DNA of 64,000 nucleotides from Entoloma clypeatum. Taxonomy: Eukaryota; Basidiomycota; Agaricomycetes; Agaricales; Entolomataceae. Where the stretch lies: positions 496,001-560,000 of the forward strand of contig OY751485.1 in NCBI GenBank assembly GCA_963565915.1, read 5' to 3'. The position numbers were made by a program, and so were the translations under genes. Every line of letters starts with the position of its first letter. Within the stretch, counting starts at the first letter, position 1. Below, piece after piece: positions 29,271 to 43,532 of the stretch. The notes under the pieces were generated by a model, which had not been told where the DNA came from, made no database searches, and saw only the letters and a list, made by a program, of their open reading frames with translations.

Positions 29271-29620
29271 CGGATAGCAGAGGGACTTGGGAATGCTGGC
29301 AACAGCGAGTACCTGCCCACTCTACCCTGGTTGGCAAAGAACCAATCGAAAGATCTAGGTTCTGAGTCTTACTTCTTCACATATGAACCTGGGAACGTCA
29401 TTACGACAAGTACCTGTCATGAGACGTCCCTAAAGGGGATTGACCTAGTACACTCCATGTGGAAACGTTGATCGCACCTTATACGTTTCTGACATATAAA
29501 GGGTTTTCCCGTGACCGCTATTCCTAAAGGGAATATGTCATAAGGAATCATTTAATTGTTTTCTTGAATCATATTCATAACACATCACTGATTGGGAACC
29601 CTTTTTTAGATTCATCTACA

Positions 29621-32600
29621 ATGTCTACCTCTCGCTCCGCCCTCGACTCCATCGTCGTCTTCGACGGCATTGACTACCAAAGCTGGGCCGAAAGGATGAA
29701 GTCCTACCTCCTCCATCAAGGAGTCTGGTGCCTTGTTTCTGGCGATATCACCCGCCCTGTCATCGCCGACTTCACCACCACGGTCTCCACCCCTGGGGCC
29801 ACTGCTGCTGCTCCCCCTGTGCTGGTTACCACTGTTGACCAGCCCGGCTTCCGCAAGGAAGAAAAGGCCTGGATTAGGGACGACGACACAGCCCTTGGAG
29901 CGATCCGTCTGAAAGTCTCTGAGGCGATCAGGCGACACATCAAAGACAGCACCTCGGCACTTGGCGCGTGGAAAACGCTAAAGGATGCCTACTCCAAGGT
30001 ATCCCCGGCCGTCATCTTCGGCGATTTCAAGGCCGCCGCCACCTACAAACTGTCTGGACGCGACCCCGTGCCTGAAATTGAACGCCTGGGGTCTCTTTTT
30101 GCCCGGCTCGCCGATTCGAGCTTTGTCATCCCCGATCTGATGCAGGCAATGATCCTGGCCAATGCAATTCCCGACGCCTGGTCGTCACTCTCCACCGCCC
30201 TTTTCCAGGTCTACGATGCCAACGATTTCACCTACAAAGCCGTCGCCAAAAGCATCACCTCTGAATACCGGCGCATGTATGCGGTCGGGTCTACTCGTGC
30301 GTCCAATGAGCAGGCCCGGAAAATTTCCGGGACAAAACGCAAGGGGCAGGACCCCAAATGGGAAAAGCAGCAAAAGCCGAGTACCTCGCAGAACGATGCT
30401 GACGAGCAGCCTAACTCGGCCGACCCAAGTACCGCTTCTGAGAAGAAGAAGGGAAAGGGACGCTGGCGCAATCAGAAGAAAAGCGCTAACAATGTGGACA
30501 ACACGTCCGACCATGTGGAAGAAACAGTTGAGTTTGTTGCTCCTGCCATTCACTTCCCCCCTCATCCGGCACCGTCCTTCACCACCGTCACTGGTCGCGG
30601 GAAAACGACAAGTACCACACAGCCCGATTCCGCAAGGATGCAGTCGCTCCTTCAGCGAATGAACCCGCCTCCATCCCAGTACACCGGGCTTCCTTCGGGC
30701 AAGCCGTCTGCGTGGAAAAAGAACGATCACATCCGCAAACTTGCGCGGAACATTGGTGCTCGTCCCTCTGGATCGAACCTTCGTATCCTAGACACCATCA
30801 TTCCTGACATCGACGAAAGGCCGGCTAAACAGCGTCGCGTAGCCCCATCGATAGAAGAATCGCTGAAGATGATGGACATAGACCATCAAAGCGAGCGGAT
30901 GGGGCCGGATCAATTCGAAGATGGGCTGATCGAACTTGACGGTTCGTCACATTCTTCTCTCAAACCTTACCAAATGCGGAAAGCTAATTATGTCTCTCAA
31001 CAGACGTATAATATATTAGCCAGTACCACTACAGAGTGCGTAGATCACTTCAGCAGTGATCTACACAAAAAATATATTAAACATTTTGCCTCTTGTACAC
31101 ACTGTAAGGAAAAAGAACGCGCTCAGTGGATCTTAGATTCCGGCGCATCATTACACTTTACCCATGAGTTTAAAGACTTCGCGTACTACAGGCCTCTCAA
31201 GGCTAAGCGATTTGTCCAAACAGCTGCAAAGGGAAAGAAACTGGAAATTCTCGGAGTTAGGGCCGTTCCAGTATGGCATACCCTAAATGGGGAAACTAAA
31301 ACCCATCTCCTACGACCGGTATTTTATATTCCGGATATGGACACACGTCTATTGTCCCTAGGCGTCTTCCTTAACCATGGTTACAAAGTTGATGGAATGC
31401 GTGGAGAAATTAATATCTCTAAAGGGCTGAACAAAATACAGTTTTCGCCTCATTTCATCGGACAAACCATTTACTGGCTAGACACTGAAATATGCTATGA
31501 CCAAATCCACGCGATCTCTAGCGAAATCACTGTTGAAACCTGGCATAAACGCCTTGGCCACCCAAATGACCAGGCGCTCAATAAGATTCCCACCAGTACC
31601 AAAGGAGTACCCAAAACATTAGTACGTGAGAAATCACAGGAAAACTGCACAGGGTGTCTCAAAGGGAAAATGCCGAATCAGTCATATCCCAATTCAATGA
31701 CCAGGGCTGTCAAACCCTTTGATCTGATTCATTCAGACCTGAAACAGATATCCACGGCATCGTACCACAAGTACAAATATTTCCTTACCTTTTTGGACGA
31801 TTTTTCTTCCCATGTCTGGGTCGTCTTGCTTAGGAAGAAGTCAGGTGCCATCACGGCGCTGAAACAATTCCTTGCGATGATCCAGAATCAATTCGCCGCC
31901 ACCCCTAAAAAATGGCGGGTTGATGGAGGTGGAGAATTTGACGAATACAAGGATGTACTTGCCAATCATGGAATTCTGATCAACGTCACGCTCCCATATC
32001 AGCACCAGCAGAATGGTAGAGCAGAAAGGATCAATCGAACACTATGGGAAAAATCTCAGGCATTGCGCTTCGATGCATGCTTACCGCCCATGTGGTGGGA
32101 ATTCTGTTTGGAACACGCAGCATTTCTCTACAACAGAACCCCCATGCAGCATCTTGAATGGAAAACCCCTTACTTCAGGGTGACCAATGAGATCCCCGAC
32201 ATGTCCAGCGTCAGAGTATTTGGATGTCAGGCATATGTATATATCCCAAAGGAGAAACGTAGGAACTCCCTGGAATCAAGATCCCGATTGATGATTTATC
32301 TCGGATCGAAACCAGGGGTCAAAGGATACCGCTTCATGGATCCTGAGACTAACACGATTTTCATGGGCGGGAAAGCTATCTTTGATGAAAGCAAGTACCC
32401 TAGATGCCACATCGACCCGTTGCCAGAAAACCACCCAGAAATGGAAGACCCAGAGCCGGCTGATGAGTTTGAGGATCTCATTCCCGGCAGCAATGATGAT
32501 GATAGTCACAACGAAACACCTCATGACCCAGTTCCCATTGAACAGGATCAACCTGAATCAGACAACGAATTGCCTGCCAGTGAGCCTGATGACGAACCGC

Positions 32601-34348
32601 AAATACCCACTCCGGAACCCGAGCAAGTACCAGATCGACCGATCAGGGAACAACGAGTTCGGAAGATGCCAGGAAGCATCTATGGGGAAGACACTCCAGC
32701 GTCTGATCTTGAAAAATTAGATCGAAGACGGAGATTGGGCGGTCAAACGGCATGGATGAATGACCTCCTGATGGAGGCGATATCGGTCCAAGTTGGCATT
32801 GTTGAAATGTCCCATAAAGACATATACCCTCTTCCAAATAAAGAAGACTGGTATGCAGCTGAACGTAAAGAGCTAGACATGCTCAAACGCCGCGGGGTGA
32901 TCACAGAGCTAGTACCCCTGCCTGCAGGGAGGAAAGCTCTAAGAAACAAATGGGTCTATAACGAAAAATCCGACGGGCGTCTGAAAGCACGCCTTGTCGC
33001 AAAAGGCTTTTCACAGGTAGAAGGGATCGACTTTGATCAGATCTTCTCACCAGTCGTAAGATATGAAACTGTCCGACTAATACTGGCATTGACAGCCCTT
33101 GAAGGGTGGTTCATGACACTTTTGGACGTCTCATCAGCCTTCCTCTATGGAACGCTCCGTGAAGTCATTTACATGCGACAGCCTGAGGGCTACATAGTAA
33201 AAGGGAAAGAACACCTCGTGTACCAACTATTCAAAGCTCTATATGGACTTAAGCAGGCCGCATTAGCCTGGTGGAGGGAACTTGATTCCTCCATGAAAAC
33301 GCTCGGCTTTGTCCGGCTTCACTCCGATGCGGGAGTGTTCATTCACAAAAGTACCAACAGGGAAATTGTAATCGCCGTCATCTATGTCGACGACTCTGCT
33401 TTTCTCGGCACAAACCAGGAATATATGCTAGAGAAAAAGAAGGCCTTCATGACCACATGGGAATGTAGGGACCTAGGGCACCTTGTGCCTGATGGGGAAC
33501 CAAAAGAATTTCTCTCTATCCAAATAAGGCAACACGGGAAACGTATCTTCATCGATCAAGTACCTTACCTTGAGAAAATACTCGAACGAATGGGGATGAG
33601 CGAATCTAACGCCACCCATACCCCACTTCCTACGGGCTACAAACCCATGATGTCCGAAGATGAACCCAATGCAGAACTTCAATCAAAGTACCAATCCGTC
33701 ATCGGATCACTTCTATATCTGATGATTGGAACAAGGCCAGACATCTGTTTTGCCGTGATTAAAATGTCACAGTTTTCCGCAAATCCCACCAAACGCCATT
33801 TAGAAGTGGCTAGGGATATTTGCAGGTATCTGAAGGCGACAAAAAATTACGCAATCATTTATGATGGCGACTCAGGGAAAGGAATCTATGCATTCACAGA
33901 CTCCGACTGGGCGTCAGATGAGAACACGAGGAGGTCTACCACTGGCTTCTTCATATCACTGGCGTCTGGAGCAGTGACATGGGTATCATCGGCGCAAAAG
34001 ACCATCGCCCTCTCTTCCACAGAAGCAGAGTATATGGCGTTATCAGACTGCAGTCGCGCAGCAACATGGCTGAGAAGCATGCTTGCCGAACTCGGAATGC
34101 AGATCGGATCAGTACCGATCTACGGAGATAACAACGGCTCCGTCTTTATCGCATCCAACCCTGTAACTGAGAAGCGATCCAAGCACATTGACGTGCGATT
34201 CCACTTCGTCAGAGAAAAAGTCTCCGAAGGGATAATTACGGTCGAATTCATTGAAGGAGTGAACAACCCTGCAGACCTTTTAACTAAGAATCTGGGGAAA
34301 ATCCTCTTTTCTAAGTTTATCCCGTACTTCGGATTGATAAAAAACTAG
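29621..34348 (+). CDS. Copia-1 Gag-Pol polyprotein, intact
   Basis: 1575 codons from the first ATG in the frame (29621, MSTSRSALDS); upstream in-frame sequence has no ATG. Gag occupies about residues 1-480 (UBN2-type, GIDYQSWAERMKSYL; no classical CCHC knuckle, only HFASCTHC). The protease active site DSGAS is near 506. Integrase has its zinc motif WHKRLGHP...CTGC near 640, then HSDLK, DGGGEFDEYK and NGRAERINRT. RT has KARLVAKGFSQVEG and YVDD near 1254. RNase H has FTDSDWASD near 1425, SSTEAEYMAL and KHIDVRFHFV. All domains are present without stops. Gag and Pol share one frame, as in classical copia, so their ratio must be set by splicing or processing. Confidence 0.96.
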   Translation: MSTSRSALDSIVVFDGIDYQSWAERMKSYLLHQGVWCLVSGDITRPVIADFTTTVSTPGATAAAPPVLVTTVDQPGFRKEEKAWIRDDDTALGAIRLKVSEAIRRHIKDSTSALGAWKTLKDAYSKVSPAVIFGDFKAAATYKLSGRDPVPEIERLGSLFARLADSSFVIPDLMQAMILANAIPDAWSSLSTALFQVYDANDFTYKAVAKSITSEYRRMYAVGSTRASNEQARKISGTKRKGQDPKWEKQQKPSTSQNDADEQPNSADPSTASEKKKGKGRWRNQKKSANNVDNTSDHVEETVEFVAPAIHFPPHPAPSFTTVTGRGKTTSTTQPDSARMQSLLQRMNPPPSQYTGLPSGKPSAWKKNDHIRKLARNIGARPSGSNLRILDTIIPDIDERPAKQRRVAPSIEESLKMMDIDHQSERMGPDQFEDGLIELDGSSHSSLKPYQMRKANYVSQQTYNILASTTTECVDHFSSDLHKKYIKHFASCTHCKEKERAQWILDSGASLHFTHEFKDFAYYRPLKAKRFVQTAAKGKKLEILGVRAVPVWHTLNGETKTHLLRPVFYIPDMDTRLLSLGVFLNHGYKVDGMRGEINISKGLNKIQFSPHFIGQTIYWLDTEICYDQIHAISSEITVETWHKRLGHPNDQALNKIPTSTKGVPKTLVREKSQENCTGCLKGKMPNQSYPNSMTRAVKPFDLIHSDLKQISTASYHKYKYFLTFLDDFSSHVWVVLLRKKSGAITALKQFLAMIQNQFAATPKKWRVDGGGEFDEYKDVLANHGILINVTLPYQHQQNGRAERINRTLWEKSQALRFDACLPPMWWEFCLEHAAFLYNRTPMQHLEWKTPYFRVTNEIPDMSSVRVFGCQAYVYIPKEKRRNSLESRSRLMIYLGSKPGVKGYRFMDPETNTIFMGGKAIFDESKYPRCHIDPLPENHPEMEDPEPADEFEDLIPGSNDDDSHNETPHDPVPIEQDQPESDNELPASEPDDEPQIPTPEPEQVPDRPIREQRVRKMPGSIYGEDTPASDLEKLDRRRRLGGQTAWMNDLLMEAISVQVGIVEMSHKDIYPLPNKEDWYAAERKELDMLKRRGVITELVPLPAGRKALRNKWVYNEKSDGRLKARLVAKGFSQVEGIDFDQIFSPVVRYETVRLILALTALEGWFMTLLDVSSAFLYGTLREVIYMRQPEGYIVKGKEHLVYQLFKALYGLKQAALAWWRELDSSMKTLGFVRLHSDAGVFIHKSTNREIVIAVIYVDDSAFLGTNQEYMLEKKKAFMTTWECRDLGHLVPDGEPKEFLSIQIRQHGKRIFIDQVPYLEKILERMGMSESNATHTPLPTGYKPMMSEDEPNAELQSKYQSVIGSLLYLMIGTRPDICFAVIKMSQFSANPTKRHLEVARDICRYLKATKNYAIIYDGDSGKGIYAFTDSDWASDENTRRSTTGFFISLASGAVTWVSSAQKTIALSSTEAEYMALSDCSRAATWLRSMLAELGMQIGSVPIYGDNNGSVFIASNPVTEKRSKHIDVRFHFVREKVSEGIITVEFIEGVNNPADLLTKNLGKILFSKFIPYFGLIKN

Positions 34349-35140: not shown

Positions 35141-36504
35141 CATCAGATATCAAGGTTGGTGAAGTATTGAGCATTCTGGAGTTTGTTGACTAGTTTGGAG
35201 ATGAGTGGAAGAGGGTACTTGTTTTTGATAGTCTTGGAATTGAGTGATTGATAATCCTGAATGAGTTGGAGGGAACCGTCCTTCTTCTTGTTGAAAAAGA
35301 CTGGAGAGGCCATCTGAGATTTTGAAGGTCGGATCTGACCAGTGGCCAGATTTTCTTCCAAGAATGCATCGAGTTCCTTCTGTTCCTTCAGAGCGAGCGG
35401 ATACACCTTGCAACCTGTTGGAGTTGTGTCGGGGATCAGCTCAATGGCATGGTCCCATACGTGTTCCTCTGGCAGATTGTCGAAGGAGGTCTTGGAAAAT
35501 ACATCTTCAAAATCATGTAAGTGATTAGGTACAGAATCGCAAAAAGACTTGGGTTTCTGATTTTGGAGGAACACCTCTGATAGGTGTTGTGAGGTAGTTG
35601 ATGATGCTCAGATGAATTCTAATGTCGGAGGTAGGGCTCTGATGAAGAGGCGATCTCCCTCTTTGAACTCATCTTCCTCCTCCGCATCGTCTTCCAATGG
35701 CTCATGCGATGATTGTTCTTTGTCCTCGCTTACTTCTTCCACCCAAGGGCCTCGCGGGGCTTCCTCCGCTAGTCCAGCATCTGGCGTCGGACCCATCTGA
35801 CAAGTGCGGATGCGTGCCTGCTCGAATTTCTGGACCTTCCGCTCCTGAATGGCCTCCTGATGACAAGTCCGACAGCAAGCGGGACAGCGACTCATTCTCA
35901 CCTCCCCAGAGGTCCAATCTACCTCGGGATTGTGCTCCTTGAGCCACGTGAATCCAAGTACAATATCCTGCTTTCCCAGTCCAGTTACAGCAAACTGGTT
36001 CCGCTCTGTGTGATCCTGATATCGGAGTATAACGTCCAGGACCTCCGATATTGCTCCAGCGTCGTTCGGAGTACCGTCAACATTGTAGACAGGGATTGCA
36101 CGTTGTAGCCTTCAGGTACTGAGTCAATGTTCTCTACCAGGGAGCAGTCAATGAAGGAGCCAGTCGCTCCGCTATCGAGGAGAGCCTTTTGTGAAAGGGT
36201 ATCCTTGGTGTCCATTGTCTCCAGAACAACATCTAGTTCAATAGTGTTGTAAATCCTCTTGTTTGTCTTCCACTTGCTCCGACACTCCAGCGATGTCGGA
36301 GGTAGACGCCACTGCATCTTTAGCAGCTAGTTGGTCCATCATGTACTCCTCCTGTTCGTCCAACGTCATGAATTGGACATTGAATCGGAGCAGACACTCA
36401 TGACTGAAATGACCAGTTTTACCACATCTGAAGCATACATTGGTGTTCTTACCCCTGACGCGAGAGGCATTGATATCCATTGCATTGGGGTCGTGGACGG
36501 TTGG
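35141..36504 (-). pseudogene. Gypsy-C gag zinc knuckle, protease and RT N-terminus
   Basis: Reading leftwards: gag C-terminus with one CCHC knuckle (CFRCGKTGHFSHEC) in 36504-36238, protease ALLDSGATGSFIDC (36317-35985), an acidic linker (35947-35608, EEEDEFKEGDRLF), then RT N-terminus (35574-35143: FDNLPEEHVWDHAIEL, FLEENLATGQIRPSKS, FFNKKKDGSLQLIQDY, YFTNLDI). The frame changes between these blocks. It stops where Gypsy-A2 inserted (35140/35141) and RT resumes at 22060. Confidence 0.85.
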
Positions 36505-36685
36505 TGTTATGGAGATTATCATAGGCTGAGGGCACACATGGTACTTATATGGCAGTGTGACATTATGTCACAGATCCTCTTTTTTGTTCACTCTCATGTA
36601 CCCTCAGTAGCACCATATATATTGGTCAAGCTCTGTTTGGTGCTAGGTGGACTGAAGAGGAGTTGTAACAGGTAAAATTGTTACA
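36505..36685 (+). repeat. Left 181-bp LTR of the hairpin element
   Basis: TG...CA, with a TATATATA box near 36618 and two internal inverted repeats (GTGACATTATGTCAC; GCTGAGGG paired with CCCTCAGTAGC). Confidence 0.85.
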
Positions 36686-36710
36686 TTTTTTTGAGCCAAC
36701 TATTATATGA

Positions 36711-37838
36711 GCAACAGCTTTCGGACAACCAAGCCTATCAAAAACTTTAAAGCTTATTTTGTCGCGAGGAGCTGATTCTTGTGCACCCCTTCAAGATAAC
36801 CTCAAGAACTCAAGATATACAGTATCACAAGAGGTGGCGAGAACTAAAAGTCTCGCCACAGGAAGTCGTGACGTGGCACACGAAAACGCGCCGCGTCGTG
36901 CTTCAAACCCTGTTCTCGGACAGTCTAGTGACTGTTCGAGAGTGTCGACGCGTGTCCCACGCGACCACGAGCCGAGAACGCAAGCTCTCGGGCTCCAGAA
37001 CCATTCACGAGAAAAGTTGGGTGGTCAACCCAACTTCGGTACCACGCAACCGTGGATGCCGAAAACATATGCCGAGGTAATTCGGCCACTGGCAGACCGG
37101 CCAGTGTCAGAAATATTCCCGAGGGTAGACCTCGGGAAAGTGTCAGTTGTCGAAGAAGAGATGTGGAAAAAAAGCCCACGTATACAGCAATGCCTCTATG
37201 AGGAATCGCGAGAGATGGCTGTTGGAGCCTTCTCGTCACCTGGAAAACCCGGCTCCGATGAAGACGACAGATTCGAGAAAGCATTCACGAAGACACTTCG
37301 TGTCCTCATTGACATGCAGCCCTCTTCTCAAGGGAATAGGAAATATCGTGGAGTTGAAACCACGATACGAAATAAAAAATCGGAGGGGGGAGAGTCACCC
37401 CTGCTCCAGTCCCTTCCAAATGACAGGGAAGCCAGTCGTCGTGTCAATACCACGACAACAAATGTAGAAAGAATGGGCGAGAAGCCTCGCCCAGCACAGC
37501 AGGAATATTGTGGAATAACTACCACGATGAAAACACAAGTTGTGGGCAAGAAATCGCACCCACTTGTATTTGAGAATCGTGGTACGAAAACCACGAACAA
37601 ATCGGAGGGGGGAGAGTTACCCCTGCTCCATCTTGTCTCAAATGACAATGACGAGTGTTGTGGTATGTACACCACGACAACAATTGTAGATACCATGGGT
37701 GAGAAGCCTCGCCCAGCACAACAGGAGCATCGTGGTATAGAACCCATGACGAAGCCGAAGGTGAAGAAAACCACGACAAAAGCAGACCGCTCATCGTGGT
37801 GGAGGTCGGCCTGGATACCGACACTACAAGGCCCGTGA
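36711..37838 (+). CDS. Unrecognised ORF within the hairpin element
   Basis: Open from 36711 to a stop at 37836-37838. The first ATG is at 37056, giving 260 codons (MPKTYAEVIRPLADRP...). No known domain is recognised. The second half is repetitive, with segments such as KKSEGGESPLLQS, KSEGGELPLLHL and GEKPRPAQQE twice, encoded by the hairpin-forming DNA. It may be a gag-like protein, a decayed cargo gene or only a by-product of structured RNA. The lack of an ATG for the first 115 codons argues against a simple gene. Confidence 0.35.
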   Translation, partial: ATAFGQPSLSKTLKLILSRGADSCAPLQDNLKNSRYTVSQEVARTKSLATGSRDVAHENAPRRASNPVLGQSSDCSRVSTRVPRDHEPRTQALGLQNHSREKLGGQPNFGTTQPWMPKTYAEVIRPLADRPVSEIFPRVDLGKVSVVEEEMWKKSPRIQQCLYEESREMAVGAFSSPGKPGSDEDDRFEKAFTKTLRVLIDMQPSSQGNRKYRGVETTIRNKKSEGGESPLLQSLPNDREASRRVNTTTTNVERMGEKPRPAQQEYCGITTTMKTQVVGKKSHPLVFENRGTKTTNKSEGGELPLLHLVSNDNDECCGMYTTTTIVDTMGEKPRPAQQEHRGIEPMTKPKVKKTTTKADRSSWWRSAWIPTLQGP

Positions 37839-39735
37839 CCTGCACCTCTTTGCCGCCACTCCTCGTTCGGGAGTAGTTGGCATCGAGAAGAACGACGACA
37901 GTCGTCATTCAGACCTGACAGGCACAACAGTGCATATCCTGTCAAGAACGAGGAGTATCCTCGTTCCCCCTCTCCCAACAACAGTGGTAAGGATGACCAC
38001 GACAAGACGAAAAAGACAACGGCGCAGACACCGTCGTCGTAGCAGAAGAAAGGAACCGGCGGGACGGCAGCAAGACGTCCCTGGAACAGCAGCGGATGTT
38101 CGTCGTGATGCCGAACCTGTGGTTCAAAAACCACAGACCAACGTCATTGGAAAACGACAGATCCAAAGGCAGGAGCACGCACTGTGTCCTGCCTGTGTGG
38201 AGATGGTAGAGAGCCTCGCCCGAGGCGAGGAATGGAGAAAGGTGATGGACGACTGATCGTCGTCAATCTAGTGAGTCGAAAGACCAGGCGGCGCCGCAGA
38301 CAGCGAGCGTCAGTCGTGGTTGACTTGCAGGAGATCTCCTGCAAGGAAGAGACGACGGCGTGAGTACCGGAGAGACTGCTTCTCCGGGCAAATGTGGTAG
38401 GACGACGAGAATCTCGTCGTCCGTAGAAGAAAACGGACGGAGAGAAACGAGGTGACGCACCTCGTCTTCAGCTCGTCTCCGAACGGCGTTGTCGTCCTCG
38501 GGCGGCAATGTGACCTAAAAGGACGACGTTGAAACGTCGTCCAGGAAGTGGGTCAGTATGCGACGGCAGATGGTGTTGCCGTCGAGTTGGGGAGATAGGC
38601 GACGGACCTTCGTCGCCAAACCCAAAAGGTGCTCTCCAGCACGTACCCATCGGCGCAGACTATCCTCGTCTGTGAAAGGTGAAAGGAAGCGACAAAGATC
38701 GTCGTTTCCCCGCGTCCACGCAGCCAGATGAAGTCGACGCCTCGTCTGGGGGTTCGGAGACCCAACGCGAAGCGTTGGTGTAGGCGAAAGGAAGAGCTGG
38801 AAGCGGTGACGAACTAATGCCATCGTTCATTCGGGATGGCGAGGTCGTTGGACCTGGTAGGATTTACGGGCGACGAAGCCTCGTCACCCCCAGTCGACAA
38901 GCGACGGAGTCGAGCGTTGCAGCTCGTCTCTGATTCGTTCGAACGAGGGAACTCGTTCGGTAGTTGTCGTGGAAATGGAGGTTGTGTTGATATGGTATGG
39001 AGAGTCTGTGCTCCATAGCAATGAGTCGAAGACGACGGCATGCATAGCTGTCGTCGAATCATGAAGGATACGGGCCACGAACCTTCCGTGGCCACACCAA
39101 ACGTGCGTTACAGCACGTATCTACCATGGCAGACGATCTCCGTCTGCCCTCGTAGTCCCCAGCTCGTCCAACGGCGAGTCTTGAAAAGACTCGGGGCTCG
39201 TCATCCCTGGCGTAGTGGGGTCGTTGAAGCGAACAGTAGGCAACGAAACGATTCGTCGCCCTCGGTCAAGAAGACTGGGACGAGCTGTACAGCTCCCCTC
39301 CGAAAGACAGGGGTACGGAACGAGTTCCCTCGTTCGGTCGTTGGCGTGAATGTAGGGTTGTGTTGGTGTGAGATGGATGACCTGTCATCCATAAAAACTA
39401 AGTCGAAACGACGGTGTATGCAGCCGTCGTGGAACCGAGGAGGAAACGGGCGACGAACCTTCGTCCCCGCGACCAAACGTGCTTGCCAGCACGTATACAG
39501 CACGGCAGACGACCCTCGTCTGCCCTCATCGATACGCCCTTCCGTGGTGTGTTGAACTGGAGTCGAGGTCGAAAGCAACGACGAAAGTCGTCGTTGCTGC
39601 GCGTCCATCGAGTCAGACGAGGACGGGCTCCTCGTCCTCGTGTTCAAAAGGCCGACGCCTGGCGTCGGCATAGGAGACAAGACGCACGGACGAGCAAACG
39701 CCCGTCGATGGTGGTGGAACGGTGTTGAGCACCGT
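36834..39735 (+). other. Array of more than 30 consecutive small hairpins
   Basis: Non-identical short inverted repeats follow one another every 30-80 bp. Examples (stem; loop positions): AGCAACGACGA with 3-nt loop (39574-39598); GGCAGACGA (39504-39524); GAACGAGGA (37946-37966); GGACGACGT (38521-38542); GCCGACGC (39651-39669); ACGAGGTG (38447-38465); CGAACGAG (38940-38959); GTGGCGAGA (36834-36859); AAGTTGGGT (37014-37036); CCCGAGG (37118-37136). The arms differ from hairpin to hairpin, so this is not a tandem repeat. Confidence 0.9.
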
Positions 39736-40443
39736 TAAGATGTTTATCGACCAACGATAAACCAATAAACGGACGCATCACGCATATCACGTGACACGTG
39801 ACGCGCGTCGAAAGTTCGCGAAGCCGCGCCCACTCGCGGCTCCTTCAGTTTCAACGAAGGAGTGCTAGCCCACCTTCGGAATTTGGGTACCAATGCAGCT
39901 ACTTATCGTGCATGTGCCTACCTTTTTTCCAATATTTTTTCGGACCAGTGTTCCACTCTTTTTTTTTAGAGGGGGGGGGAACTATACTCCACCCGGAACA
40001 AAATTTTGAAAGGGGGCAGTACTGGGGATATACCTATCCCAAGCGAGTGCAACCAGCTTCTACTCTAGCGAGCGAAGCAAGCTCAGTGAGCTCACCACAC
40101 ATAATTTTTCTCGAGCGATAGTCTTTTGCTCAAGTCATTTATGTAAATTGTTTCACTGTGGAACAAAATTGTGTGCATGTGTGGAAGTGTCCACTGAATT
40201 GGGACAGAAGGAATTCTGTCCTCCACACCCTTTTGTCTTCATGGTGAAATAACCCACCAATTGTATATTAATTTTCATGGTAGGATGTTACATCTACCAT
40301 TATGAATTGAAAGCCTTGAATATTCAGGGTTAATCAATGGGAGAAAGTGTTCTCTCATTTCATCAAAATTTTTTTTCTCTCTCTTCGTGCATATTTTTCC
40401 TTTTTTTTTATTAGATTGCTGGATACAATCTCAAAGGGGGGTA

Positions 40444-40624
40444 TGTTACAGAGATTATTATAGGCTGAGGGCACACATGGTACTTATATGGCAGTGTGAC
40501 ATTATGTCACAGATCCTCTTTTTTGTTCACTCTCATGTACCCTCAGTAGCACCATATATATTGGTCAAGCTCTGTTTGGTGCTAGGTTGACTGAAGAGGA
40601 GTTGTAACAGGTAAAACTGTTACA
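40444..40624 (+). repeat. Right 181-bp LTR of the hairpin element
   Basis: Pairs with 36505-36685; by eye they differ at a handful of positions. Confidence 0.85.
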
Positions 40625-41705
40625 GTCAGAGTCGGAGCAATGACTGTCGGAGGTGCACACGGAATATAGGGGATGAAAGGTCGGGGAAATACAGATCCTG
40701 CCGCTGCCTTCGGTGCAGTGCAGAAAGGGTTCGGGCATGTTGGAACTGTGGACTTGAAAGCTTTATTGGCAATTCGATTATCATTGTTGACTCGTGCGGC
40801 TGCATATCAGGCATCCGGGTTGTCATCCGCGGGTCGTCCGAAAGTTAGTGTCGCAATTTTGGATTGGATGTCGGATTGGAGGCCATGTCGGAACTTAAGT
40901 ACTATGTTCGTTTCTTCAGTGTACCCAGCCTTTTCGACATAATCCTTGAAGTCGTCAATGTAAGCCTCCACATCCCGACTACCTTGGTAATAGGCTTCTC
41001 CCTCAAGAATGAGCTGTGCATCTTGTTCTTCATTTTTCGGAGTGAAATCCGCGATGAACGCGGTTTGGAACTGCACCCAGGTCTGGTGACACGGAGCTCC
41101 GGTCCGACGCTCTTGTCGGATGATGCGGTTGGCGAAGTGCGCAGCACATCCACTCTTCATAAAGGAAAGCGCCCAATAGATCCTAGCATGATCATCTGCA
41201 AACTGTTCCGGAACCAGTCCCATATACAGTTCGCAAGAATTAACAAAAGTCCAACCAGTGGTACGTGCTCCGTCGAAGTCCGACGGAGTTGCAGGTTTGG
41301 CCCGACGCACACCTGGATTGGCAGGTGTGATCAGGGCTGGCTGGAAGGCCGGAAGTGGGGCCTCCGCTGGAGGGGGAATTGGGTTGGGGTTGGGAATGGG
41401 AACAGGTGGAATAGCGGCACGGATAAGTTGTTCGAGTTGAGCGGTAATGTTGGTGAGGGTCTGGCGGTGTTCCTGGAACTTGCATTCAAGCGCAGCAAGA
41501 CATTCAGGGTCATCCATTTCTACGTGCGATACGGAGTCACCAGTTACAGAGTGGTAGGCAGAATGGTGGGAAGAGGGATCGGAAGGGGTGTCAGATGTAC
41601 CGGAATCGGAGGAGGGCGGACTCAAGTCCGTGTCGTCAACTCCGAAGCACGGAATGGCTTCAACGGTACAATTTGTACCCAGTCTGTTTAGAGAGAACTT
41701 TCTAC
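40625..41705 (-). pseudogene. Gypsy-C gag, N-terminal part
   Basis: Minus-strand frame from near 41700 (NRLGTNCTVEAIP...) through an acidic/Ser-rich leader, coiled segment (ECKFQEHRQTLTNITAQLEQL), proline-rich linker and a retrotransposon Gag core (YWALSFMKSGCAAHFANRI, QTAFIADFTPKNEEQDAQL, YIDDFKDYVEKAGYTEE, FRHGLQSDIQSKIATL). A TGA follows DDNPDA near 40805; the frame then continues to the hairpin-element insertion at 40625. No convincing ATG start was seen. Confidence 0.85.
41694..41703 (-). promoter_or_regulatory. Gypsy-C primer-binding site, self-complementary type
   Basis: On the plus strand AGAACTTTCT, 2 nt inside the 5' LTR. Its reverse complement AGAAAGTTCT is at 41847-41856 in the LTR, 32 nt downstream (minus direction) of the TATATAG box at 41882-41888. 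Same geometry as Gypsy-A and family E. Confidence 0.7.
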
Positions 41706-42198
41706 TGTAAGGGCGACCTTAAGATCCAACAACTCTGAAGTGCTCCGAAGCGACTCCGACGTCGGACGACTTTCAAGGAAAATCCAAAGTTAAATTAGAC
41801 TCTACGAAGTACAATACGAGGCGTACCTTGCAAGGGAAATCCAAAGAGAAAGTTCTGAGGATTCCCTTGCAGGCTAGACAGCTATATAGACGACGAGAAT
41901 TGGAAATGAGGAGAGGAATGTTGAAATACGACAAAGATTGGAAGTAGGGATGGGAACGGAATATGTAAATCGGAAGCGTGCATGTGGTGGTATAAATCAT
42001 TGCTCCGACTTGCACTCCGACATGGAGGATGGGTTGGAAGTGTCGGAGGTCGGAGGTGTTGAAGGATAGATGGAAACGAAAGGAAACATAAAGTATAGTA
42101 ATATAAATAATAGGCATACCACAACGGTCGGAGGGTCGGAGGATGGGTCGGAGGTGTCGGAGGTGTCGGATTGAGGAAATTGGATGGTTGCCCTTACA
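41706..42198 (-). repeat. Gypsy-C 5' LTR (493 bp)
   Basis: Partner of 18951-19443, same length. TG...CA, TATA box on the minus strand at 41882-41888. Abuts the KDZ exon at 42199. Confidence 0.9.
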
Positions 42199-43532
42199 GC
42201 AGGATCCTGACCACAGGCAGCTCGCTTCAGCATTAGAAGACCGCGCCAGATGCGGACAACGCGGTGAAACTCAGGATAGCAGTGCTGTATAATTCTGCAA
42301 TGAATACCGGCCTCTTGACAGTTAATGGACACATACTAATGGTTTTTTAAGACCCAGGTTATCCATGAGGTGAAGGAGTGTCTGATAATAATCGTAAATG
42401 GAAACTTTGCCTTGTGATGACAGTTCATAATAGACATCAAGGCAGTCGAACGTGAAGACAGTTTGGGGACGATTGAATGTGGCAGGAAACCAGCCAGTGC
42501 GAAGGAGTTGAATCCGATTGGACGTGAAGCTGTTCGTCCCGCAGTCGCAGTAATCAACAGAGACATGGTGAAAGCCTGACAAATTGACGATGCAGAATTT
42601 GCGGGGCCCAGGCAAAGGCCACGGACATGAAGCTCCTCCGTGACCAAGTTGGAGGCGAAGCCCGAGAAATTGAAGTGTCCCTTTCTGGAAAAAGGAGCCA
42701 TTCCAACACTCAACACAACTCAAAATGGGAAAAAATAACAAGAAAACAGTCAACTTACCTCGACACGATGCAAGGGATGTATCCTATGACCATCAACCAA
42801 GCAACTCTGACAACGCAGGAGGCCCCCATCAAAACAATTCCTACACTTGTAGACACCATCTGCCTTCCCACAAGAATGACACCGAGTCTGGCCAAAGAAG
42901 TTCCTGAGCCCGTTGTGTCTTAAGAGTTTGTCGAGAGTGCCTTGGCAGAAATTCAACCATTTGTTAAGTTTTGTCTGAGCCCAACAAAATCAGTGTTGAT
43001 GATATGGAACAATGGATGGAGAGGACATACCGAAGTCATATTCTTTCTTTTTCTCTTCGGCTTCGCAGGCTTCTGTGGCTGGGGTGGTGGTGGTGGCAAA
43101 TCAGGATCAACATTATCTAGCGGTTGTGGTGGTGACAGATCATAATCGACGTCCCCTGGCAGTTGCGGTGAGTCCTCGGATTGCACAGATGGTGATGCCT
43201 GCACATCACAGTGTTCATCAATGTGACGTTGGTAGCCACATCGCTTGTGTTGGCTGCCAGTGGGCCTGAGAGTGCTGATGGAAACACGTGACCGATTAGA
43301 TGTGTCTGCAGTCTGCAACAGGAGTCTGAGTTGATGATGAGCCTGCTGCCTCAGCGGCCATCTGGGCATCGTTGGTGGCTCTGTGGGCGTTGTAGGCCGC
43401 CAATTCCCGTTGCATGATTGACTGTCTTGTGAAGATAAAAACTGGCTTCGCACGTGTCGGCAGTTCCTTAGGCATCGTACCAGTGAAAGTTCTTGACTCG
43501 GAGGCCTCTGACTCGGAATATGGGACTCCCAT
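42199..43532 (-). pseudogene. KDZ transposase gene, N-terminal exons with CxC2 domain
   Basis: First part of the KDZ gene that continues at 14289-18950. It starts at the ATG at 43532 (MGVPYSESEASES), followed by a charged leader ending KPKRKRKNMTS, intron 42975-43030, then TKLNKWLNFCQGTLDKLLRHNG and the cysteine cluster RCHSCGKADGVYKCRNCF...LRCQSCLVDGHRIHPLHRVE. Intron 42709-42758 is followed by CWNGSFF, GLRLQLGHGG, NLSGFHHVSVDYCDC, TGWFPATFNRPQTVFTFDCL, GKVSIYDYYQTLLHL and YPEFHRVVRIWRGLLMLKRA. It ends at GQDP, where Gypsy-C inserted. One frame change near 43320 and an uncertain junction near 42340 suggest decay. CxC2 is the cysteine cluster paired with KDZ transposases. Confidence 0.85.

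Follow-up and report, generated by a model that had tools for sequence, protein, structure and literature searches.

How an LTR element without pol has its RNA chosen by the particles of another element is an open question, and one locus in the window (the 64-kb stretch of DNA analysed here) may bear upon it: a run of small, dissimilar hairpins within a putative LTR element. The whole element occupies 36505–40624 (4120 bp, with an inner part of 3.8 kb) and carries the marks of an LTR retrotransposon: paired TG...CA LTRs, a target duplication and a polypurine tract (PPT). The 181-bp LTRs (36505–36685 and 40444–40624; plus strand, as are all stranded features below) form a direct repeat (TGTTAT...GTTACA) with 97% identity, that is, five differences. 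The 5-bp target duplications, GTTGG on the left (36500–36504) and GTCAG on the right (40625–40629), derive from GTCGG, the CpG of which decayed both ways: GTCGG is the sequence found at the insertion point in an uninterrupted gypsy copy (L010). A sister copy, C6, is flanked on either side by AGTAC. The PPT (AAAGGGGGG, 40433–40441) stands directly before the 3′ LTR, and the combined pattern of PPT and LTR start, with up to three mismatches, occurs at six places in the genome (the backward-pattern control at none). The LTRs and PPT of the original prediction are thus real, and the genome contains at least six insertions of the element.

The same prediction held that the element lacks pol, and this stands for the ORFs scanned: none of the 11 of at least 100 aa inside the element matches a Pfam family. 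No TGG start of a primer-binding site is visible after the 5′ LTR, and the longest complementarity between 36686–36760 and the element's own LTR is 7 nt. Among the best-scoring candidates in the genome none is an autonomous partner sharing the LTRs or the PPT/LTR junction; a partner could have other LTRs. The gypsy pol at locus L020, which lies on the same strand as a hairpin block and ∼2.7 kb upstream of it, was considered for this role and rejected because several stops interrupt it and the hairpin block belongs to a separate ∼2.25-kb repeat.

To what extent do the hairpins exceed chance? Non-overlapping perfect stems with loops of 3–10 nt were counted and compared with 30 dinucleotide shuffles per region, a test that had been set beforehand. 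Between 36834 and 39735 there are 41 stems of at least 6 bp (shuffled mean 5.7, maximum 10), 32 of at least 7 bp (mean 1.3, maximum 5) and 20 of at least 8 bp (mean 0.33, maximum 2): a 7- to 60-fold excess, far above the controls. Hairpin density in the adjoining retroelements is near background. The copia ORF (29564–34348) has 9, 3 and 1 stems in the same length classes against 7.2, 1.9 and 0.4 after shuffling, and the gypsy sequence (40700–43453) has 7, 2 and 2 against 4.7, 1.3 and 0.4. The 3′ tail of the element (39741–40432) is more weakly structured, with a lower stem excess (7, 4 and 2 against 1.0, 0.4 and 0.07, counted over 39735–40443) and a mean folding z of −1.6. Folding of 150-nt windows (40 shuffles each) gave a mean z of −3.4 for 36690–37850 (8 windows) and −3.3 for 37850–39750 (12 windows), whereas the copia region averages −0.75 and the sequence downstream 0.0; minus-strand values are almost equal to these (−3.0 and −2.9). 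Sixteen of the 17 stems originally quoted were recovered within 2 nt and the other, 39616–39636, in a different register (39617–39641). That they follow each other with few gaps was overstated: perfect hairpins cover 21% of 36690–37840 and 31% of 37841–39740.

Twenty-nine of the perfect stems of at least 6 bp fall in a non-coding array of ∼1.9 kb (37841–39740), the arms of which are polarised, ACG...CGT. Among 5′ arms ACGA occurs 11 times and TCGT not at all, while the region as a whole has 26 ACGA and 37 TCGT; base composition does not explain this polarity. The claim that each stem is different is not wholly correct: those in the 3′ half have in common a degenerate core, ACG...CGT, that is polarised, and diverged repeat units make up part of the array. 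Three such units were located by profile search (38536–38673, and two comprising hairpins b–f at 38994–39148 and 39371–39524), spaced 376–475 bp apart and about two-thirds alike; only part of the array is so built. The longest hairpin (39574–39598, an 11-bp stem with a 3-nt loop) is paired in 94% of cells across 14 aligned sequences. In its neighbour at 39617–39641 (9-bp stem) no pair has changed on both sides with pairing kept; the next, at 39651–39669 (8-bp stem), shows kept double changes in relatives. No recurrent loop motif was noticed by eye in the hairpin list. A ribozyme or known RNA was rejected, as no Rfam family matches 36400–40700 at E≤1, and the exact pattern of the 11-bp hairpin has no occurrence in viral contigs.

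The remaining 12 of the 41 stems lie inside an ORF of 359 aa (36759–37838), the codon phases of which do not support the suggestion that the whole body of the element is non-coding. Differences in this ORF fall unevenly on the three codon phases (91/83/149 of about 604 each, p=6e-6), alignment gaps are mostly multiples of 3, and the ORF contains two in-frame repeats spaced by 222 bp (74 codons). The codon-phase signal comes mainly from 37600–37840. Estimates of dN/dS from a codon alignment range from 0.38 to 0.46 for the element against copies C6, C10, C15 and C11, and from 0.50 to 0.95 among those four; against C2 the value is 0.75. We nonetheless relied on the DNA phase test, since the codon alignment favours amino-acid similarity and overruns the element's stop. 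The ORF is an orphan: it has no Pfam match at E≤1, a threshold that a diverged gag could escape, and AlphaFold2 on the single sequence was uninformative (mean pLDDT 39). Further downstream the phase signal is absent, both from 37850–38260 (173/162/186, p=0.44) and from 38360–40440 taken whole. An open frame of 341 aa in C6, with an arginine-rich stretch near its end, had raised the idea of an ARM protein, and a similar small frame exists in the element at 37930–38256. This frame was rejected as coding because 37850–38260 is without phase signal and contains many gaps whose length is not divisible by 3. The C6 frame itself returned a single match at E=0.2 from PDB sequences, which is not meaningful, and a single match at E=0.2 from Pfam, far below the family cut-off.

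Have the stems been preserved? In selected alignments of copies with the window element, non-CpG rates of transition and transversion are 0.046 and 0.030 in stems, 0.150 and 0.106 in loops, and 0.114 and 0.081 in spacers. The exception among 11 single loci is L012, with stem transversions at 0.097 versus 0.070 in loops and 0.086 in spacers. When the window element is left out, 15 copy pairs have non-CpG transversions at 35/1463 stem, 44/643 loop and 177/4760 spacer positions; transitions are equal in stems and spacers (0.068 and 0.069). In all seven deep pairs, which were selected after the table had been seen, stem transversions are fewer than those in loops and in spacers, once by less than 0.001. 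In the eight close pairs recent change is under no clear constraint: stem transversions are below those of spacers in six and of loops in five, and stem transitions exceed spacer transitions in five.

Compensation in other copies was the second test set for the original prediction, and here the outcome is divided: the deep pairs show constraint on transversions, and many stem changes are uncompensated. The copies have 941 unchanged stem cells, 144 broken by a one-sided change and 87 in which a one-sided change is kept by G-U; double changes number 28 kept and 14 broken. In the count by CpG context, CpG-containing pairs account for 94 of 146 broken one-sided cells, which we read as decay of dead insertions. 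The kept double changes, too, mostly involve CpG: 23 of 29 cells combine two transitions there, an outcome that a palindrome losing its CpGs neutrally would also give. Outside CpG context, the best alignments have more broken (10) than kept (5) double-change cells. Nor do stem cells bear a strand-specific sign of RNA selection in the form of G-U/A-C asymmetry: one-sided non-CpG changes give G-U in 38 and A-C in 26 cells (21 and 17 distinct); CpG contexts have more A-C (73) than G-U (52) cells.

Covariation was scored on two alignments: A1, the window element with 13 of 14 loci (L012 left out), and A2, 22 of 28 profile-search matches to the repeat units (omitted were the weak L013 5433–5488, window 38838–38930, the half unit of L041 and three from L033, an apparent duplicate of L017). 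The fixed-structure score was reached by 7 of 500 shuffles for A1 and none of 500 for A2, and double-change cells number 19 (shuffled 10.8) and 20 (shuffled 9.8), respectively. Further pair types are not in excess in A1, where 364 of 500 shuffles reach the same count, and the A2 structure slid by −2 has 23 double-change cells, more than the true structure. RNAalifold on the 22 units recovered just three of five hairpins, with 14 pairs and a covariation term of −0.59. Because some rows place hairpin d one column out of register, arm re-pairing was used in its place. In eight of nine hairpin types with the window element (10 of 22 A2 rows and 6 of 14 A1 rows), and in seven of nine without it (7 + 5 rows, then every non-window row, 19 + 13, or fewer for types in which an arm is missing; Wilcoxon over types, p=0.027), an arm pairs better with its own partner than with homologous arms; types c, e and h show little or no covariation. 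Covariation in the presumed RNA structure is thus above shuffles, yet driven in part by CpG and uneven between hairpins.

Together these analyses point, with roughly an even chance of being right, to a pol-less LTR element that is moved by another element's enzymes and contains a cis-acting RNA domain kept by selection, probably one that serves packaging. The proposed order is LTR, orphan ORF, a 1.9-kb non-coding stem-loop chain, tail, PPT and LTR. Selection during replication would have preserved pairing rather than loops or exact letters, and the chain most probably serves recognition and packaging of the predicted RNA, its hairpins being bound multivalently by Gag/nucleocapsid supplied in trans or by the product of the element's own ORF. 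We infer that selection rather than mutation bias maintains the pairing, that it acts on RNA and that its function is packaging. Of the hairpin-chain RNA first envisaged, the density, the retention of hairpins in relatives and covariation beyond the re-pairing controls hold; part of the body, however, has a codon-phase signal. Some 40 diversified hairpins with signs of pairing constraint would constitute a natural library for what packaging machinery might read, with shape, short core and stem number as candidate cues. A bolder version, which we consider unlikely, is a new kind of retroelement parasite that couples an orphan protein to an array of diversified, polarised stem-loops bound multivalently by that protein or by a hijacked Gag, in which shape and a short ACG...CGU core are inherited rather than sequence, the hairpin block being modular and present also on another repeat family.

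Mutation may instead make the hairpins and keep them perfect: template switching, whether in replication or in reverse transcription, can correct quasi-palindromes and flip hairpins, and the array would then have scarcely any selected function, if any. Two hairpin groups bear the mark of such strand-switch or inversion events, an exactly reverse-complemented 4-nt loop with the stem and most flanks unchanged: GGAA at 38940 and at L013 5312 versus TTCC at 39318, and GGAA in L020 versus TTCC in its L042 homologue. Such events would also yield matched arm changes, and the folding excess is about equal on both strands. However, arm-to-arm copying should, we argue, leave the overall rate unlowered, yet stem transversions in deep pairs are reduced; the adjoining copia and gypsy sequences, likewise reverse-transcribed, are not filled with hairpins; and one-way polarity is not predicted, though descent by duplication could give it. 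We regard this origin as improbable. The element is a test case for telling selection on RNA structure apart from both CpG decay and hairpin flipping.

A role in stability or evasion, with stems shielding the RNA from decay or RNA interference and no specific partner protein, would suit the variable stem lengths and loop sequences, the largely kept pairing and the lack of a loop motif evident by eye. Dicer substrates are far longer than these perfect stems of 6–11 bp, and for this reason a small-RNA precursor is also disfavoured. Polarised arms with a common ACG...CGT core are unneeded for generic stability, and we think this role distinctly unlikely. More doubtful still is a fossil origin, in which a captured sequence or an old satellite with hairpins underwent duplication within the element and has simply been decaying since: the spacing and two-thirds likeness of the units, the block of the same hairpins in another repeat family and the close pairs all accord with it, but simple decay predicts equal own-arm and cross-arm pairing, contrary to seven of nine types. 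A function in DNA, as protein-binding sites or hairpins extruded from single-stranded cDNA, would make the strand irrelevant, as the lack of a clear imbalance between G-U and A-C and the similar folding z of the two strands might imply, but given arm polarity and changing loop letters that offer no common binding site by eye, it is very improbable.

The selected RNA domain invites comparison with known pol-less elements. TR-GAG-type elements have LTRs and a single ORF in the gag position, as does ours; its ORF differs in having no Gag or other Pfam match (E≤1) and no confident fold. Retrozymes (PMC4918200) are also non-autonomous retrotransposons, and their RNA structure is functional, whereas 36400–40700 contains no hammerhead or other Rfam family (E≤1). 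TRIMs such as Cassandra are pol-less LTR elements with RNA structure described as conserved, but according to excerpts of PMC7215508, the source of that description, they have almost no internal domain, and the Cassandra structure consists of LTR pairing and a piece of 5S rRNA; our element exceeds TRIM size and matches no Rfam family. No hairpin-array LTR element is found among the matches listed from open-licence PMC, judged by titles and the starts of abstracts. The closest likeness is to LARDs: Sukkula of barley is portrayed in the same excerpts (PMC7215508) as having LTRs, no pol and a core domain with well-conserved RNA structure, and as being assumed to be mobilised in trans. The element is LARD-like in its LTRs and in the absence of pol from all 11 ORFs of at least 100 aa; it departs from the definition of an internal domain without coding capacity, since an ORF with a codon-phase signal precedes its non-coding part, in which many small, polarised hairpins follow one another. 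This suggests that LARD-like elements can retain an ORF.

The pol-less LTR element at 36505–40624 (the hairpin element) is crowded with short inverted repeats. Perfect stems of at least 6, 7 and 8 bp number 41, 32 and 20, against means of 5.7, 1.3 and 0.33 in 30 dinucleotide shuffles, and local folding energies agree with this excess: the hairpin density claimed in the original prediction is borne out by a wide margin. Its observation, a hairpin array within an LTR element, is confirmed; its interpretation as a whole is partly supported. Density is higher 3′ of 37841 (29 stems, 31% coverage) than in 36690–37840 (12 stems, 21% coverage). Related loci elsewhere in the genome (L013, L009, L016, L017 and L020) are also stem-rich where they match the element, and more decayed relatives have fewer stems.

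The stems had been taken to be all unrelated to each other, which needs correction: part of 38536–39524 is built from three diverged units whose hairpins are homologous. Units akin to these are present at L009, L013, L016, L017, L033, L012 and L043, and a separate repeat family (L020, L038–L042) has them too. The arms are, moreover, polarised. Among the 5′ arms of the 30 stems of the 3′ half, ACGA is present in 11 and TCGT in none, GACG in 12 and CGTC in none, and ACG in 21 against 3 for CGT, although these stems are not independent events because the array units were duplicated. The lean is opposite to that of the whole region (ACGA 26, TCGT 37). It recurs in relatives, with ACGA:TCGT at 11:1 in L013, 6:2 in L009, 2:0 in L016, 3:0 in L017 and 4:1 in L020, and is absent from the 12 stems of the half that holds an open reading frame (ACGA 1, TCGT 3). 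The array stems look like a diversified family.

In selected alignments to the window, non-CpG transversions run at 0.030 in stems, 0.106 in loops and 0.081 in spacers; among 11 loci taken singly, L012 is the exception to low stem values. Because the stems had been defined in the window, the comparison was repeated between other copies, using 15 pairs of our own choosing: transversions were 35/1463 in stems, 44/643 in loops and 177/4760 in spacers, while transitions were alike (0.068, 0.064 and 0.069). In the seven deep pairs, each of which includes L012, L020, L042 or L043, transversions were always rarest in stems, once by less than 0.001, and stem transitions fell below those of loops in all seven and of spacers in six. 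In the eight close pairs stem transversions were below spacers in six and below loops in five, and stem transitions exceeded spacers in five, a pattern to be anticipated if most of these copies are dead; we attach no p value to the contrast, since the deep pairs were chosen with the table already in view and some sequences recur in several pairs.

Pairing between arms was assessed on the basis that, if arms change independently, a left arm should on average pair with homologous right arms as well as with its own. Own pairing exceeds cross pairing in eight of nine classes of homologous hairpin (permutation p≤0.036 for b, d, f, g and i, not for c, e, h and j), and in seven of nine without window rows (Wilcoxon p=0.027 when each lineage contributes a single copy, 0.020 with all rows). 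The difference is clearest in d, g and i; c is nearly flat, and e and h are slightly negative. Counts made with the structure fixed lean in the same direction: the covariation score is reached by 7 of 500 shuffles of A1 (the window and 13 loci) and 0 of 500 of A2 (22 repeat units), and the number of double-change cells by 2 and 0 of 500, with the tool warning in both cases of sequence relatedness. Against this, further pair types were not raised in A1 (364 of 500 shuffles reach the number), and in A2 a control structure slid by −2 gave 23 double-change cells against 20 in true register.

The caveat on stem constraint that matters most is CpG decay. Within a stem each CpG is base-paired with a CpG of the opposite arm, and neutral decay of both can therefore yield seemingly compensatory double transitions; 23 of the 29 kept (pairing-preserving) double-change cells in the best alignments are of this kind. 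Non-CpG double changes there comprise 5 kept cells and 10 broken (3 distinct states), and with repeat units added 20 kept (5 distinct states) and 11 broken (3 distinct). Double transversions that preserve pairing are seen at 39002, 39380 and 38601/39076, but they trace back to a small number of independent events, and a pair hit by two random transversions would still pair in about half of all cases or more. Non-CpG changes on one side only gave 38 G-U and 26 A-C, which is therefore no demonstration of selection on one RNA strand.

An alternative is that the hairpins were made, and kept perfect, by template switching during reverse transcription or replication. Two groups of homologous hairpins contain members with 4-nt loops that are exact reverse complements of each other (GGAA/TTCC), while the stem and most of the flanking sequence stay the same; these are probable flip events, and strand-switching or inversion therefore probably acts on these hairpins. 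The flipped loops lie in 38940–38959 relative to 39318–39335, and at 4629 in L020 relative to 833 in L042 (oriented coordinates). They are the main reason for giving a mutational origin any weight, and we regard it as unlikely.

The most economical account is that of a pol-less LTR element bearing a chain of stem-loops whose pairing is selected. Such an element would depend on the enzymes of another; its RNA would form a long chain of small stem-loops, with selection acting on pairing more than on letters. Most likely, we infer, the chain would let an RNA-binding protein, the partner's Gag or the product of the element's own open reading frame, recognise or package the RNA. Perfect stems of 6–11 bp speak against a Dicer substrate.

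That frame (36759–37838, 359 aa), which the hairpins overlie, runs counter to the proposal of a wholly non-coding internal region. Comparing the window with L009, L010, L011, L015 and L019, differences at codon phases 1/2/3 are 91/83/149 (∼604 sites per phase; p=6e-6, an optimistic value given that changes are shared between copies), mainly from 37600–37840 (42/33/87); earlier stretches are not significant alone. The same copies give no signal for 37850–38260 as a whole (173/162/186, p=0.44) or 38360–40440 as a whole (536/550/565, p=0.68). Two non-coding control subwindows also give low p values, 39050–39400 (p=0.038) and 39740–40440 (p=0.0007), the latter with phase 3 not in excess over phase 2. 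Gaps in the frame are 3, 9 and −6, common to L009 and L010, −6 in L019, and 1, 9, 28 and 9 in L011, where two are not multiples of three and lie near the frame start. Two repeats within the frame are spaced 222 bp (74 codons) apart. No Pfam family matched the 359 aa, and an AlphaFold2 prediction from the single sequence was uninformative. The element carries an orphan reading frame that was probably once a gene.

In its working the element most resembles the LARD group, pol-less elements for which PMC7215508 claims well-conserved RNA structure. The LARD internal domain lacks coding capacity, whereas this one has a frame with a codon-phase signal, and we therefore refrain from classing it with the LARDs. 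The element has no match to any Rfam family at E≤1, and among the entries listed in searches of open-licence PMC papers none dealt with an LTR element characterised by a hairpin array.

The element is inserted in a gypsy-type element on the minus strand, recognised by an ORF at 40807–41625 (minus strand) matching Retrotrans_gag (Pfam); uninterrupted gypsy copies at L010 and L011 span the insertion site. The two 181-bp LTRs are 97% identical. The target duplication, GTCGG at the empty site in L010, now reads GTTGG in the left flank and GTCAG in the right. At these positions (36500–36504 and 40625–40629) one CpG has decayed in opposite directions, leaving a minor trace of how CpGs mutate in this genome. 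Across the 60-Mb genome (20 contigs) an LTR search found eight places and a PPT/LTR-start pattern six (backward-pattern control, none); together they give at least six insertions (the window and 2476 kb on C1, and C2, C6, C14 and C15). A sister copy at C6:5067151–5094881 is flanked on each outer side by AGTAC, provided its 5′ LTR is read as split, the outer part lying 20.7 kb off, which suggests later insertion or rearrangement. Two C2 places among the LTR matches look like duplicates: C2:1929772–1931433, and C2:2078328–2079952 with C2:2130647–2131035, the homologous sequence of the second being split by ∼51 kb.

The separate repeat family (L020 4156–6401, reverse strand, and L038–L042) is up to 2.25 kb long, with matched stretches ∼90–96% alike; its BLAST match to the window element is confined to the hairpin-array part. 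All four copies examined at the start begin with CATCAGCA, and both full 3′ ends carry two hairpins followed by TCGTAGTTTTTTTTTGTAGTTTA; the family is perhaps Helitron-like. Elsewhere in the window, 29564–34348 holds a single unbroken frame of 1594 aa for a polyprotein, copia-type as judged by eye, possibly of a young and complete element.
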